From: a virus
IMG/VR virus record: IMGVR_UViG_3300042898_002521
Location: 23,549 to 87,548 of that record
DNA length: 64,000 nt
Direction: 5' to 3' (one strand)
The position numbers and the translations under genes were made by a program. How positions within the stretch are numbered: position 1 is the stretch's first letter; every line of letters starts with the position of its first letter. Below, piece after piece: positions 9,614 to 58,324 of the stretch. The notes beneath the pieces are model-generated. The model was not told where the DNA came from. It made no database searches and worked only from the letters and a program-made list of their open reading frames with translations.

Positions 9614-10067
9614 AGAAATCTCCCGATACAAATGACCCTGGGTTTACCAAGATACCTAACTCTAAAGCAGCCGCAAGAGCTGGAATAAGAACTGCTGCTG
9701 ACACCCGTGTGTAAATCTCAGCCATTAATTCCATGTCTTCTGCAAGGCTTGAGTCATCACCAATAACGCCATCTTCTTTTAACGTTGTAGTAAGGGTCTC
9801 CGCTAAAACTTGTCCGTTCATGGAAGCCATCATGTCAACAAAAGCTTTGTAAGGAATAACTTGAAGCAATCTGTCAAGGCTTTCTTTACGTTCCATCTCG
9901 TCACCCTCATCACTTACAGGGGTAAACCCAGCCGTTACTGCGTATTTATTAGGGTTATCAATACCACTATCGTACAAGAACCACCTGTAAAGAGTAGTTG
10001 CAGGAACGTCTGCGGTCTCAAACACATACTCAGGCTCGCTATTACGTTCCCAAAATTTCCAATTCAT
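9603..10067 (-). CDS. Hypothetical protein, 154 aa
   Basis: Start at 10067 (MNWKFWERN) lies seven bases behind GGGAG and overlaps the polymerase stop by four bases. Mostly helical and acidic, with a hydrophobic C-terminal helix (VSAAVLIPALAAALELGILV) that is more like a protein core than a membrane anchor. No family recognised; context suggests a replication accessory protein. Confidence 0.65.
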   Translation of the reverse strand: MNWKFWERNSEPEYVFETADVPATTLYRWFLYDSGIDNPNKYAVTAGFTPVSDEGDEMERKESLDRLLQVIPYKAFVDMMASMNGQVLAETLTTTLKEDGVIGDDSSLAEDMELMAEIYTRVSAAVLIPALAAALELGILVNPGSFVSGDFYER

Positions 10068-12043
10068 TTTGCTTCTCCCCAACGGTCTACTACTTTTATG
10101 TCAGCTACTATAGGCACAGATAACAAATCAATACCCTCCATAGCATCTCGGATTGCTGACACCGTGTCATCAACCTTATCATTTGGAGTTAGTGTAACCA
10201 ACTCGTCATGAACTGTAAGAAGGAGCCTAGCACCTTCTGGCAGCCTTTTGTACGCACGCACCATAGCCAACTTAATAATGTCAGCGGCAGAGCCTTGAAT
10301 GCGTGTATTAAAAGCCTGTCGCTCTGCGGCAGACCTTAAAAATGGGTCACTAGATAAAATGTCTGGAAGGTACCGTTTACGACCTAATACGGTAGTTACA
10401 TAAGGAGGAGTGTTAGCTTTAGTTGCCCCAATAACTTTTATCCTATAAGAACTTACGGATGAAAACTCTGCCCCAAACCTAGAAAGCAAATCGCGGGCCT
10501 CAGTAATAGAACACCCAATAGAACGAGAAATTTTATCTGGGCCTACTCCGTATGCCATAGCGAGCACTAACACCTTACCTGCTTTACGATCCACTCCCAT
10601 GGTGTCACCTACTGTTGTGTAGATATCCCCACCCCTTGAATAGTTTTCCATCATAATAGGGTCTTTAGACATAGAGGCAATAACGCGGGGTTCAATCTGG
10701 GAGTAATCCGCCACTACAAGTTTGTATCCTTCGGGGGCAAAGAAAAGGTTTCTGATTGCCTTTCCGTGTGCTGTATGAGGTGCAGGAACGTTTTGAAGGT
10801 TAGGGTTACGACTGCTGAAACGACCAGTTTCCGCGCCGTGCTGTATGAAATCGCAATGAATCCTACCGCTAATAAGGAGCGAGTTTTTATGTTCACGTTT
10901 TTCCTTTCCTCCTGTAGTTCGAACTACTTCCCCACCTAAATAAGGCACTACATAAGTAGTACTCAATTTGTTAAGATCAGCGTAGGTAAGCATAGCATCC
11001 ACTAAAGGATCAGCTAACTTGTACGCTTCTAAAGCCTCGGCTGACACAGAGTAGTCTGAATAAGTAAGTTCCAAACCTTGTTCGGCCTTACGATTTCCAG
11101 CGGTAGTAAGAATTTTAGGCTTAAGCCCCCTACCGCCCTCGTCCTTAGAGCCGTACAACAATAATTGTTTTTCCTGGTTAGAGTTAATATTAAATGGGCG
11201 CTCAGCAATACGGAATATCTCTGCCCTGGCAGTTTCAATGTCAATTCGTAATTGCGCATCAAGGGCCTCTAGTTCAACCACATCTATTGGAGCACCTTCA
11301 AGTTTCATAGCGCATAAAACTTTAAGCACGTCCATTTCTAAACTCATAATAACGTCAAGCTCTGAGTCTTTAATTTTTGGAACTAAAGCTTTCCATAATA
11401 AGAAAGTATATTTAGCATCAAGAAAAGCATACTTGGCAACTTCGGTAAACGAATACTTCTCTACCTCTTTACCTACACCTTTAACCATCTCGTAACCAAA
11501 CTCACGCTTAAGGCAAGCGTCAAGCCCGCACTTGTTCTTGTTACGGTTATCACTAATAAATGATGCAATCATAGTGTCAAAATATGGGCCTGTAGGAACT
11601 TCCCCTTTATAGTACTTTGCGATGGATGTCAAATCAAAGATTAGGTTATGACCTACTGTAAGAAGGTTACTATTGAATAGAATAGGACGCAAAGCCTTAA
11701 ACACTTCATTAGGGTACAGCTGGGCTGGTGGGGGACCAAACTTTTTAGTGGCTTTTTTCTTATCCCGTGAGTAATCACTAGGGCGAGCGGTAAGGCCTGC
11801 TTCTACGCGTTTCTCGCCTTGGCCTGTAAGTGGAAACACTTCCTCTACAAAATCACCGTTAGGGTGTCCCATTGGAATTACATCGCACCGACCGTGAGTG
11901 GCAAAAGTAATCCATAAGACCTCGTTAATCGGAGTAACCCCACGATTATCGCCAACGGTTTCTACGTCAAATGCAAAAGCGTCTTGTGTTAAATAATGTG
12001 CGACCATGTCATTTAACTGGTCAAGTGTAGTAATAATATTCAT
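10064..12043 (-). CDS. polA: DNA polymerase, family A, with 3'-5' exonuclease, 659 aa
   Basis: Start at 12043 is set by AAGGGG. The exonuclease domain has DVET (26-29), HNLIFDL (D137) and YAFLDAKYT (Tyr 205, Asp 209). The polymerase has motif A DYSQIEPR (from 446), motif B with RKAGKVLVLAMAYG (from 486) and motif C VHDE (611-614). There is no 5'-3' nuclease domain, as is usual for replicative phage enzymes. It should be the phage replicase, working with the DnaB-like helicase and primase encoded at 19242-21394. A large hairpin sits directly upstream of its ribosome site. Confidence 0.95.
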   Translation of the reverse strand: MNIITTLDQLNDMVAHYLTQDAFAFDVETVGDNRGVTPINEVLWITFATHGRCDVIPMGHPNGDFVEEVFPLTGQGEKRVEAGLTARPSDYSRDKKKATKKFGPPPAQLYPNEVFKALRPILFNSNLLTVGHNLIFDLTSIAKYYKGEVPTGPYFDTMIASFISDNRNKNKCGLDACLKREFGYEMVKGVGKEVEKYSFTEVAKYAFLDAKYTFLLWKALVPKIKDSELDVIMSLEMDVLKVLCAMKLEGAPIDVVELEALDAQLRIDIETARAEIFRIAERPFNINSNQEKQLLLYGSKDEGGRGLKPKILTTAGNRKAEQGLELTYSDYSVSAEALEAYKLADPLVDAMLTYADLNKLSTTYVVPYLGGEVVRTTGGKEKREHKNSLLISGRIHCDFIQHGAETGRFSSRNPNLQNVPAPHTAHGKAIRNLFFAPEGYKLVVADYSQIEPRVIASMSKDPIMMENYSRGGDIYTTVGDTMGVDRKAGKVLVLAMAYGVGPDKISRSIGCSITEARDLLSRFGAEFSSVSSYRIKVIGATKANTPPYVTTVLGRKRYLPDILSSDPFLRSAAERQAFNTRIQGSAADIIKLAMVRAYKRLPEGARLLLTVHDELVTLTPNDKVDDTVSAIRDAMEGIDLLSVPIVADIKVVDRWGEAK

Positions 12044-12059
12044 AGCATGCCCCTTAAGA

Positions 12060-12099
12060 GCCACTAGCGGTAGGAAAGGGGGTACCTACCGCTAGTGGC
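12060..12099 (-). promoter_or_regulatory. 15-bp hairpin next to the polymerase ribosome binding site
   Basis: GCCACTAGCGGTAGG (12060-12074) and CCTACCGCTAGTGGC (12085-12099) are perfect inverted repeats round a 10-base loop. On the minus strand the loop reads TACCCCCTTT; four bases after the stem comes the polA site AAGGGG, to which CCCCTT in the loop is complementary. No T run follows, so it is not a normal terminator. T4 gene 43 polymerase represses its own translation through a hairpin at the same place; a similar role here is inference. Confidence 0.75.
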
Positions 12100-16553: not shown

Positions 16554-16557
16554 TTAG

Positions 16558-16636
16558 TGGAGCAGTCGAGAGTCGAACTCGATTCCTAACATTTCCGACA
16601 TGCGGAGTTAATGCCAGTCGATACCAAATCTGCCCC
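16558..16636 (-). ncRNA. tmRNA-like or Ala-tRNA-like RNA without mRNA domain, 79 nt
   Basis: On the minus strand it opens GGGGCAGATTTGGTATCGAC, close to the conserved 5' end of tmRNA. Acceptor GGGGCAG (16636-16630) pairs with CTGCTCC (16565-16559) and contains a G3-U70 wobble, the alanine identity element of tRNA-Ala and tmRNA; discriminator A at 16558. A T arm TCGAG-TTCGACT-CTCGA is perfect. There is no D stem, as in tmRNA. The usual anticodon arm is replaced by an 8-bp stem CTGGCATT/AATGTTAG with an inner TCCG/CGGA hairpin. The mRNA-like part and pseudoknots are missing. It could be a minimal derivative of tmRNA or a strange tRNA. Confidence 0.6.
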
Positions 16637-54652: not shown

Positions 54653-56251
54653 CTACCTAGAGAAAAATGGTGAAGACGAAACTTCTGCTTCTGGCATGGT
54701 CATATCTAGTGTTAGACAGCACGCAATGGCTAAAGAATCAGCAAAATCATCATGTGCATGAGCTTCGTCTGGAGCTTGCGCCGTAAAGTTAGGGCCTTGA
54801 AATTTAGTCTCTAAATCAGTCATTTGCTGGTAAAAACGCTTATAGGTACGCAATCTACGAGTCTTAGCGTGTGCTGGAAATCCAATCATACGACGGTCAA
54901 TAAGAGCCTTAAGATGCTTCCAACGTTTAGACTGCTCAGACTGGCTACTGCTTAAAGGAACAACTTCTGCTCTTGGTAAAAGAAGTTTAAGACGCTGGGC
55001 CACTGCGTCACCTACACCGTTTGCGTCAACTCCAACAATTAACACATTGTAGTTGGCAAGGAAGTTTACAATCTGGAAGTACTGGTCTTCCCAGTCATCA
55101 CCTTGAATTTCCATCCAGTTAAGTACGCGATGATCGTAGTAACCAAATTCATCAGGTCGGTCCCAATCAACCCAGACAACGGTAACTACTGTACTGTCCA
55201 TCTTTCGAGCAGGGTCAATACCAACAACTACAGGAGTACGGTGCCAAGCACGTACTACTTCTTGGCTGGTATCTCCAAGCTCATCCATAATAGTGGACGT
55301 AACGAACATACCTTTTTCAAGCATCCACTTGCAGTTGTAAGACATCTGGAACTCATCAGAGTCTTCACCAATGCGCAACATTTCTTTACGAACGAACTTA
55401 TCGTATTTAGGGTTAACTTTAGACACGTCTCGCCAGTCCCATTGAAAATGATTTTGGCGTTTCCCACGGTTGGTCTGTCGTCTTTTATTTAACTGAATGG
55501 ACCGATAAAAGTTATTCTTAACATTAGTAGGTGTTCCAGTCTTAACCATAGTTCCCGAGTAGTACGCAAGCATAGGGCTAATAGATTTTGAAACAATAAA
55601 GTCGTCTGCGCCCTGGCACTCATCAATAACAATAAGGTGAAATGACTTGGATTCAATTTTGGCGCGGGGGTTGGCGGTCATCATCATAAGGCTACTGCCA
55701 GAGTTTTTAAGTTTGATTTGGCGCGTAATGCCTGGGACTTTTCCAAGAGAGTCGTCAATTTCTGGGTCACCTAATATTTCTTGGGCCCTTTCAGATGTAA
55801 GGCGATTTACAGTTCTACCAAACAAAGTTTCTACCTGGCCCTCAACGGGAGCGAACATACCAATCCATATACCGTGTTTAAACTGACCGAGTAAGTCAGG
55901 ATACATTTGAGCAAGACGTGGAAGTAAAACCATTAATGTGGCTACTGTGTTAGCAATGGTTTCTGATTTTCCAGACTGGCGAGCCGCAAGGGCGGTAACC
56001 TCTTCGCCATCATTAATAATTACCGATTCCATAATACGACGCGCTAAAGGAAGCTGGTAAGGGTGTAAAGAGTGCCCTACAAGAGCGTCCATGAATTCAA
56101 GCATGTTATCAATAAGTTTATTTACAAACTCTTTGGATAACTCATCCAGCTCTTCTTCATCGGATGGGTCTTCAGTGCCTATTCCATCAAGGAATTCTTC
56201 TTCTTCTTCTTCTGAACCCTCTTCGTAAAAGAGGTGTTGAGTTTCGCTCAT
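54653..56251 (-). CDS. terL: Terminase large subunit, 532 aa
   Basis: ATPase: Walker A AARQSGKSE (89-97), Walker B FHLIVIDE (204-211), motif III KTGTPTNVKN. Nuclease: VGIDPARKMDSTVV (first Asp), GVDANGVGD (second) and DDFADSLAIA (third), the RNase H-like triad. A very acidic N-terminal extension (EEGSEEEEEEF) is unusual. No small subunit was recognised; the short HTH or the basic proteins nearby may serve. A long hairpin lies upstream. Confidence 0.95.
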   Translation of the reverse strand: MSETQHLFYEEGSEEEEEEFLDGIGTEDPSDEEELDELSKEFVNKLIDNMLEFMDALVGHSLHPYQLPLARRIMESVIINDGEEVTALAARQSGKSETIANTVATLMVLLPRLAQMYPDLLGQFKHGIWIGMFAPVEGQVETLFGRTVNRLTSERAQEILGDPEIDDSLGKVPGITRQIKLKNSGSSLMMMTANPRAKIESKSFHLIVIDECQGADDFIVSKSISPMLAYYSGTMVKTGTPTNVKNNFYRSIQLNKRRQTNRGKRQNHFQWDWRDVSKVNPKYDKFVRKEMLRIGEDSDEFQMSYNCKWMLEKGMFVTSTIMDELGDTSQEVVRAWHRTPVVVGIDPARKMDSTVVTVVWVDWDRPDEFGYYDHRVLNWMEIQGDDWEDQYFQIVNFLANYNVLIVGVDANGVGDAVAQRLKLLLPRAEVVPLSSSQSEQSKRWKHLKALIDRRMIGFPAHAKTRRLRTYKRFYQQMTDLETKFQGPNFTAQAPDEAHAHDDFADSLAIACCLTLDMTMPEAEVSSSPFFSR

Positions 56252-56300
56252 GTATCTTCCAAACTAATAAAACCGATAAATAAAGGATACAGGAATGAAA

Positions 56301-56344
56301 GAGCTCTAGCGTGTAAGAAAGGAGGAAGAAACACGCTAGAGCTC
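56301..56344 (-). promoter_or_regulatory. 14-bp hairpin with 16S-rRNA-tail-like loop upstream of terminase
   Basis: GAGCTCTAGCGTGT (56301-56314) and ACACGCTAGAGCTC (56331-56344) are perfect inverted repeats. On the minus strand the 16-base loop reads TTCTTCCTCCTTTCTT, which contains CCTCCTTTCT, the 3' end of 16S rRNA in many Gram-positive bacteria; the plus strand would show its perfect Shine-Dalgarno complement AGAAAGGAGG. TTTCATTCC follows, so it could also terminate. The terL site GGAAGA (56260-56255) is complementary to TCTTCC in the loop. Role unknown. Confidence 0.7.
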
Positions 56345-56385
56345 AGTTGCCACCTTAGGAGAGGTAAAGAAGTGAGGCTTTACTA

Positions 56386-56637
56386 CTATAGCATAGAGCG
56401 CTTATTTATTTCAGATGCCAAAGCATGTATAGCTTCAGCACCTAAAGATAAATCTTGTAAACTAACTACATCGTTAGGGTTTTTTTGATACCTGCCAAGT
56501 GCTCGGTTAGTCTCTGAAATAGCCTGTTCTGTCCATAGGTACAAGTCCGCGGTAGCTAACTTCGCTACTCTATTGGCTACTTTCTCAGAAAAAGGTTTGT
56601 CCCAGTTTTCTTTTTTAACCCAAAATTTTAGTCCCAT
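56386..56637 (-). CDS. Hypothetical protein, 83 aa
   Basis: Start at 56637 (MGLKFWVKKENWDKP) has GAGGAG and overlaps the upstream gene by 10 bases. Helical protein (VANRVAKLATADLYLWTEQAISETNRALGRYQ...). A small helical protein before terminase could be a small-subunit-like DNA-binding protein, but there is no HTH signature. Confidence 0.65.
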   Translation of the reverse strand: MGLKFWVKKENWDKPFSEKVANRVAKLATADLYLWTEQAISETNRALGRYQKNPNDVVSLQDLSLGAEAIHALASEINKRSML

Positions 56638-57690: not shown

Positions 57691-57694
57691 AGTC

Positions 57695-57729
57695 TAAGAA
57701 TAGCAAAAGGGCGCCCCATAGGGCGCCCT
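57695..57729 (-). terminator. Strong rho-independent terminator
   Basis: AGGGCGCCC (57708-57716) and GGGCGCCCT (57721-57729) form a perfect 9-bp stem with a 4-base loop, followed on the minus strand by TTTTGCTATTCTT. It lies 11 bases behind the membrane protein gene at 57740-58072. Confidence 0.9.
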
Positions 57730-57739
57730 AAGCCTAGTA

Positions 57740-58072
57740 TTAGCTAAGGTGGTGGTCTGGAGTGATTGTAGTGCCATCTTCATCGTAAAGAATCTCTTCA
57801 GCTTTTTCAGCAAGTTCTGCTATAGATACTGCGGCTACTTCTTCATCTTTAATTTTAGAAAACGCTGAATTAATCTCAGAATCAGTTAGATTGCCATCTT
57901 TAAGGAAGGCCCGCGCCAGGTCTTCAGCCACTACGGCTACTGCCATAATTGCAGCAAGTGCCGCAGTTTTCCAAGTTTCAAGACCTATAATTGAACCAGC
58001 ACCAATTGTACCAAGTGATGTTGCAATTATTACTGCAATCATTCTTGTAGAGATATTTTTTACTTTTTTCAT
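57740..58072 (-). CDS. Membrane protein, holin candidate, 110 aa
   Basis: Two hydrophobic helices (MIAVIIATSLGTIGAGSIIGL and TAALAAIMAVAVVAEDLA) near the N-terminus, a basic N-terminal tail and an acidic cytoplasmic C-terminus with SELAEKAEEILYDED. This is the layout of short class II-type holins in actinophages. An endolysin is not adjacent. AGGAAAGG site; strong terminator behind. Confidence 0.65.
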   Translation of the reverse strand: MKKVKNISTRMIAVIIATSLGTIGAGSIIGLETWKTAALAAIMAVAVVAEDLARAFLKDGNLTDSEINSAFSKIKDEEVAAVSIAELAEKAEEILYDEDGTTITPDHHLS

Positions 58073-58090
58073 TTTATACCTTTCCTAAGG

Positions 58091-58324
58091 TTATTGTTCG
58101 TCTACGTGCTGTTCAAACTTGCCTTCAAGTTTGCTCAGTTTTAGTTCTATACGGTTAACAGCATCTCTCATGCTCGAACCGCCATTTGGCCTGTATTGCT
58201 CTTCTAGTTTTTCTAAACGAGCGGTAATTTTGTTAAAAAATTTTAATCCGCCATAAATAATGGCTGATATTTGAATTGCTGCAATTAATATTGCAAGCAA
58301 GGAACTAAGAGTGTCAGTTGACAT
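58091..58324 (-). CDS. Membrane-anchored coiled-coil protein, 77 aa
   Basis: Start at 58324 (MSTDTLSSLL). One membrane helix (LLAILIAAIQISAIIYGGLKF), then a coiled coil with RPNGGSSMRDAVNRIELKLSKLEGK. The RPNGGSS.RDAV motif is widespread in actinophage membrane proteins, usually near lysis genes. Probably acts with the holin candidate. Confidence 0.7.
   Translation of the reverse strand: MSTDTLSSLLAILIAAIQISAIIYGGLKFFNKITARLEKLEEQYRPNGGSSMRDAVNRIELKLSKLEGKFEQHVDEQ

Follow-up and report, generated by a model that had tools for sequence, protein, structure and literature searches.

The stretch of DNA analyzed here (64,000 nucleotides, hereafter the window) belongs to a virus record representing an 87.5-kb virus contig, and the genes around the locus of interest lie on its minus strand. 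Read along that strand, a gene for a 97-aa protein (56679-56386) is followed by a hairpin (56301-56344) and then by terL (54653-56251), which encodes the terminase large subunit (Pfam Terminase_6C, E 1e-8). By TerL, the isolated phages nearest to it infect Streptomyces and have terminases that are 53-55% identical, and the phage also possesses a whiB gene; together these make an actinobacterial host likely. Elsewhere on the minus strand an 82-nt stretch (16555-16636), which adjoins a tRNA-Asn, matches the tmRNA model at its two ends with 61.7 bits. It displays an acceptor stem (GGGGCAG/CTGCTCC, the third pair being G-U) and a T arm, a tag-reading frame would not fit into it, and its sequence reads as a tmRNA-like tRNA domain alone.

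The hairpin comprises a perfect 14-bp stem (GAGCTCTAGCGTGT/ACACGCTAGAGCTC) that encloses a 16-nt loop, TTCTTCCTCCTTTCTT on the minus strand (56315-56330), and is followed by a tail, TTTCATTCCTG (56290-56300), that is T-rich in relatives too. A prior sequence-only reading had described just this stem and loop 50 nt upstream of terL, and both the structure and its placement are exact, with the terL ATG at 56251 and the site GGAAGA present. Only one other perfect hairpin of at least 14 bp exists in the window, and the fold energy of the 86-nt region has a z of -5.67, with none of 200 shuffles being equally stable. The loop holds CCTCCTTTCT, a 10-base match to the 16S rRNA end GGATCACCTCCTTTCT, i.e. 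a copy of the anti-Shine-Dalgarno (anti-SD) tail, as had been claimed. This end was found in one actinobacterial draft, that of Streptomyces rimosus, and had no match in seven other actinobacterial drafts, in which the rRNA operons are probably not assembled. A 10-base tail match is seen in 0.5% of composition-shuffled loops of the same kind. Given that a 16-mer with at most three mismatches is expected about 0.9 times per window by chance, the letters of the loop alone are unsurprising, and the weight of the case for a 16S-like loop lies with the relatives.

To place the hairpin in context we considered 80 terL relatives, fetched from a set holding more than 500 further ones. Most of the 80 possess a terminator-like hairpin upstream of terL, with very different stems and loops, and in most lineages the loop is an ordinary terminator loop of 3-8 nt. 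In the clade of the window the loop copy of the 16S tail spans 6-11 nt with the core CCTCCTTT, and it is retained on other stems in L114 (TCTTTCCTCCTTTCTT), L103 (ATTTCACCTCCTTTGG) and L110 (ATTTCCCTCCTTTGG). Loops of the same clade with this motif, likewise on differing stems, are also seen in L016/L152 (AATTTCCCTCCTTTCG), L113 (GTTCACCTCCTCTGA) and L119 (TCTCCTTTC); the motif is weaker in L111 and L101, and the loop of L010/L011 is devoid of it. The sequence-only reading had looked to related phages for a covarying stem around an invariant loop: one clade indeed keeps the loop on covarying stems, but the closest sister lineage, L005/L006, keeps an identical 14-bp stem and has lost the motif, its loop being TTTTACTCTATTCTT. 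By this comparison the loop is a 16S-tail copy retained in one clade, and not a universal feature. An alignment of 17 sequences has the terminator stem 98.9% paired, with changes on both sides in 8 of 11 pairs, and its covariation score is reached by none of 500 shuffles, for a structure supplied by us and with counts of a kind that the kinship of the sequences inflates. When the matches of the 11 long loops to GGATCACCTCCTTTCT were added up, the total was reached by none of 20000 shuffled loops and none of 5000 permuted tails, in a statistic whose loops are related and so do not count as independent events. All the fetched sequence together contains 53 terminator-like hairpins with loops of at least 9 nt: nine of these match the tail over at least 6 nt, all of them belonging to this RNA, and the other 44 are without the motif. 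Among 180 other hairpins the longest tail match is 6 nt, in four cases.

Examination of the region preceding the hairpin indicates that it forms the 3' terminator of a larger unit, a point absent from the sequence-only reading. An extended -10 box, TGCTATAGT (56385-56393, minus strand; hexamer TATAGT at 56390-56385), which also came up as a single hit, predicts a transcription start at ~56378. From there extends a 30-nt 5' element, GCCTCACTTCTTTACCTCTCCTAAGGTGGC (56349-56378, minus strand), which includes the segment 56352-56366 and in which predicted GCC/GGC closing pairs, invariant in 17 of 17 sequences, surround a CU-rich segment. This element, which directly precedes the hairpin, occurs in two subfamily versions, GCCTCACTTCTTTCCTCTCCTAAGGTGGC and GCCTCTCTTCCTCTCCCCGTGTGGTGGC, and is family-wide the most widely conserved part of the RNA, more so than the hairpin to which attention had first been drawn. 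Additional members turned up in further scans. In 35 of 40 clusters (distinct in the upstream 40 nt) the GCC of the element is preceded by a TANNNT box that starts at a distance of 12 or 13 nt, other positions being rare, and 25 of the 40 have the extended form TGNTANNNT. Between the two subfamilies the hexamer differs in how it overlaps the stop codon of the preceding gene; hence, coding constraint does not explain the box. After the terminator there is a second -10-like box, TATCCT (56284-56289, minus strand), which is likely to be the terL promoter, and a TANNNT box just past the terminator is found in most of 43 distinct relatives. The next gene is itself variable, a glycosyltransferase-like gene in L007/L113 and a tRNA-like sequence in L077 taking the place of terL.

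The fixed spacing of the first box, the second TANNNT box and the varying next gene together suggest a free-standing small RNA gene. A trans-acting sRNA of this kind should have a promoter and an intrinsic terminator of its own, and these correspond respectively to the -12/-13 box, as far as sequence tells, and to the covarying stem with its T-rich tail. We accordingly interpret it as a free-standing sRNA gene whose ~87-nt product would extend on the minus strand from ~56378 to ~56292. The same arrangement of promoter, element and terminator is found in about 35 distinct lineages of aquatic viruses, which, along with the lack of an Rfam family, further favors this reading. The upstream -10 box and the downstream T-rich tail support the minus strand as the expressed one. 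From the orientation of promoter and terminator it follows that the RNA would carry the 16S-like copy and not its SD complement, which speaks against the earlier suggestion that an opposite-strand transcript might titrate ribosomes as an SD sponge.

Three other accounts of the locus can be weighed at this point. The first holds that the hairpin does no more than end the upstream operon, as an intrinsic terminator whose pyrimidine-rich loop is fortuitous, and that there is no sRNA function. All lineages possess a terminator at the locus, in most cases with a loop of 3-8 nt, the change of loop on a retained stem in L005/L006 fits such an account, and the prophage relatives show a terminator alone at this place. 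Yet a promoter box and the conserved 30-nt element directly precede the hairpin, and the loop motif survives turnover of the stem and is absent from the 44 other long-loop hairpins, so that we regard this account as unlikely. The second draws on phage lambda, in which the late leader consists of the promoter pR', the short 6S RNA and the terminator tR', followed by the late genes. The present locus is alike in having a promoter, a short conserved RNA and a terminator ahead of terL and structural genes, all on one strand, and the GCC..GGC element might on this account be an antitermination site governing entry into terL and the late genes. However, unlike the lambda leader, a separate promoter box follows the terminator and the neighbors vary, terL not always being the next gene; the conservation of the 16S tail would also be left unexplained, making such a leader improbable. 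The third would see no RNA but a cos/pac DNA packaging site, given that the locus adjoins terL and the DNA of the element is strongly conserved. Against this, covariation of the stem through G-U intermediates fits RNA pairing, the element is flanked by a promoter and a terminator, and it sits away from terL in L007, L028, L077 and L113; we therefore hold a packaging site to be highly improbable.

The best sign that the 16S-like sequence is itself selected comes from its appearance at another place: L179 has lost the motif from the terminator loop, but its 5' element (1417, minus strand) reproduces 13 nt of the 16S tail in the form of ATCACCTCCTTTC. In L119 there are matches to the tail in both the terminator loop and the 5' element. 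Pairing of the loop with the 5' element of the same RNA was considered and rejected, as in the lineages with an anti-SD loop their longest complement is 2-5 nt, versus 6-11 nt for the loop and the 16S tail. The protein Era recognizes the AUCACCUCC region at the 16S 3' end, and the RNA could conceivably be a decoy for Era or another protein that binds there. CACCTCC is present in L179, L103 and L113, whereas the clade of the window and L016 are without CACC and the common core is the anti-SD part; a protein decoy has accordingly only the slimmest of chances.

No family at the Rfam gathering threshold was found for this RNA in the window. In particular, the covariance model of the actinobacterial 6C RNA (RF01066) gave no listed match for this part of it even at E up to 10, and none in four relatives. 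A covariance model of the present RNA (R1) recovered one strong copy per phage record, was weak for the second subfamily, and found no homologs in eight actinobacterial genomes. There is no recognizable homolog among isolated phages, and the upstream regions of Streptomyces phages BRock and GiJojo are without such an element. It thus looks like an undescribed family of phage RNAs next to the packaging gene.

With respect to potential targets, the sequence-only reading had paired the loop with the site of terL. In the relatives the terL sites are GGATGA, GGAAAA, GGACAA and GGAATA without matching changes in the loop; as the sites vary independently of it, the terL RBS was rejected as a loop target. 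Of that reading as a whole, what looks like a real RNA, its probable minus-strand expression and a loop kept by one clade are supported, while pairing with terL, the SD sponge and universality are not.

A better candidate than terL lies 1.7 kb upstream, in the form of a gene (57740-58072, minus strand) for a holin-like small membrane protein of 110 aa. The product is hydrophobic and transmembrane, and matches phrog_26427 (E 4e-25; annotated as 'nuclease') and, weakly, the holin family phrog_443 (E 0.0018). When the 5' element was scored against the RBSs of the phage, the RBS region of this gene, ACCTTAGGAAAGGTA (58077-58091, minus strand), emerged as an outlier with a predicted -19.1 kcal/mol, the next best among the sites scored being -14.2. 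The predicted duplex has 14 of 15 bp, with UACCUCUCCUAAGG as the RNA segment assigned to pairing with the 5' region of the gene. The homologous site in L005/L096, ACCTTAGGAGAGGTA, is a perfect 15-nt complement, and those in L008 and L114 pair at about -19. The other subfamily has a different element and a different membrane gene, yet here too, in L044/L059, L047, L053 and others, pairing is predicted to be best at the RBS of the small membrane gene in the corresponding map position.

A wider comparison covered 347 RBSs from 29 nonredundant lineages, with start codons picked by rule and lineages that share ancestry. Pairing at or below -18 kcal/mol is predicted for 8 of the 47 small membrane genes of the region. 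Only 2 of 300 other genes pair so strongly, and of these the one in L063 is also such a membrane gene. The corresponding Fisher p is ~2e-6 at this threshold, which was chosen after the data were seen; with the threshold at -16 it is 3.5e-4, and at -14 it is 0.04. In 10 of the 29 lineages no site scores better than that of the membrane gene, versus 4.25 expected, and ranking by the 16S tail itself does not single these sites out (p 0.71). When the 28 foreign elements were substituted, they never beat the lineage's own element in L044, L047 and L053, whereas elsewhere between 1 and 6 of the 28 did. With shuffled elements the native value is attained 0-5 times in 500 in six of the eight lineages, 27 times in L029 and 77 times in L202. 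Strong RBS pairing is confined to about a third of the lineages, and over all genes the difference in pairing between membrane genes and others is not significant (MWU p 0.36). Taken together, these comparisons make the holin-like membrane gene the probable target. As separate observations on these genes, the membrane-gene leader of L044 and L059, ~1765 nt upstream of the sRNA, contains CCCCCACACACGGGGG, which is foldable and overlaps the predicted pairing site, and a strong terminator-like hairpin of the window (57694-57743, minus strand; AGGGCGCCC-TATG-GGGCGCCCT then TTTGCTATTC) lies just 3' of the holin-like gene.

We propose that the sRNA would be made from its own extended -10 promoter, between the 97-aa gene and terL, and be ended by the hairpin acting as an intrinsic terminator. 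It would expose two CU-rich single-stranded stretches, namely the 5' element and, in the clade of the window, the terminator loop with its copy of the 16S tail. Acting in trans, it would pair with ribosome-binding sites and block initiation: the 5' element would confer specificity for the holin-like gene of the lysis region, placing a brake on lysis, and the terminator loop would add a general anti-SD contact. The architecture, the covarying stem, the 16S-like loop of one clade and the enriched pairing with membrane genes emerge from comparison of the relatives; transcription, repression, the direction of the effect and the role in lysis we infer from them. To a phage-encoded, trans-acting, RBS-blocking sRNA, with the holin-like gene as best-supported target and the terminator loop as anti-SD contact, we assign a probability of roughly 0.6. 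The fuller proposition, that a family of such sRNAs in aquatic actinophages masks the RBS of an exchangeable holin-like gene and that in one clade the 16S-copy loop competes with the ribosome, is more tentative and somewhat short of even odds.

Alternatively, the RNA could be a general anti-SD decoy with no specific targets, which occupies strong host SDs and thereby favors phage genes with short ones. The core of the loop is the generic CCTCCTTT, the segment of the terminator loop, CCUCCUUU, is predicted to bind an ideal SD at -17 kcal/mol, and the predicted SDs of the phage match the tail over at most 7 nt, mostly 4-6, in a survey whose start sites were chosen by SD score. However, the loop motif occurs in a single clade and the 5' element throughout the family, and that choice of start sites weakens the survey as an argument. 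We consider a decoy of this type rather unlikely as the sole function, though the sRNA proposed here may disfavor long-SD mRNAs in general.

Among known systems, type I toxin-antitoxin RNAs, such as IstR-1/TisB, act in trans on small membrane proteins, and the present case resembles them in that a small RNA would, by prediction, block the RBS of such a protein. They differ in that here the candidate target lies 1.5-2 kb away in the phage and the membrane protein gives way to unrelated ones from lineage to lineage. The 6C/B11 RNA of mycobacteria uses two C-rich loops to repress genes with complementary RBSs (PMC10470900). The likeness extends to a small actinobacteria-associated RNA with two C-rich single-stranded loops and RBS pairing, the last being predicted in our case, but the phage loops are CU-rich anti-SD copies instead of runs of C, the RNA is phage-encoded, its second loop is that of the terminator, and it gives no covariance-model match. 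By analogy, the best reading is that the phage sRNA would work like the 6C/B11 RNA without being a member of that family. According to the accessible portion of a 2025 review (PMC12197685), the c4 RNA of P1/P7 pairs through its loops around the RBS of a phage gene, comparable to the loop pairing at a phage RBS predicted here. The genes concerned are different, and in that portion none of the phage RNAs is described as a copy of the 16S tail, nor is an sRNA from an actinobacterial phage mentioned.

Our literature search for phage anti-SD sRNAs likewise retrieved nothing matching, and few phage sRNAs have known functions. If the above proposal is right, this would be a widespread RNA family of abundant aquatic viruses, joining a terminator loop as pairing site, mimicry of the ribosomal tail and RNA control of a holin-like gene, which are not joined in the literature found. 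The covarying RNA-target pairs would then make it possible to test directly how this kind of regulation tracks the replacement of genes.

A second strong hairpin is found elsewhere in the window (12060-12099, minus strand), with 15 perfect pairs and the minus-strand loop TACCCCCTTT, one base off ACCTCCTTT. The gene for DNA polymerase (10064-12064) comes directly after it and has AAGGGG in its RBS. L231 keeps this hairpin with the loop TTCCCCCCTTT and a G-U pair in the stem, which fits a minus-strand RNA.
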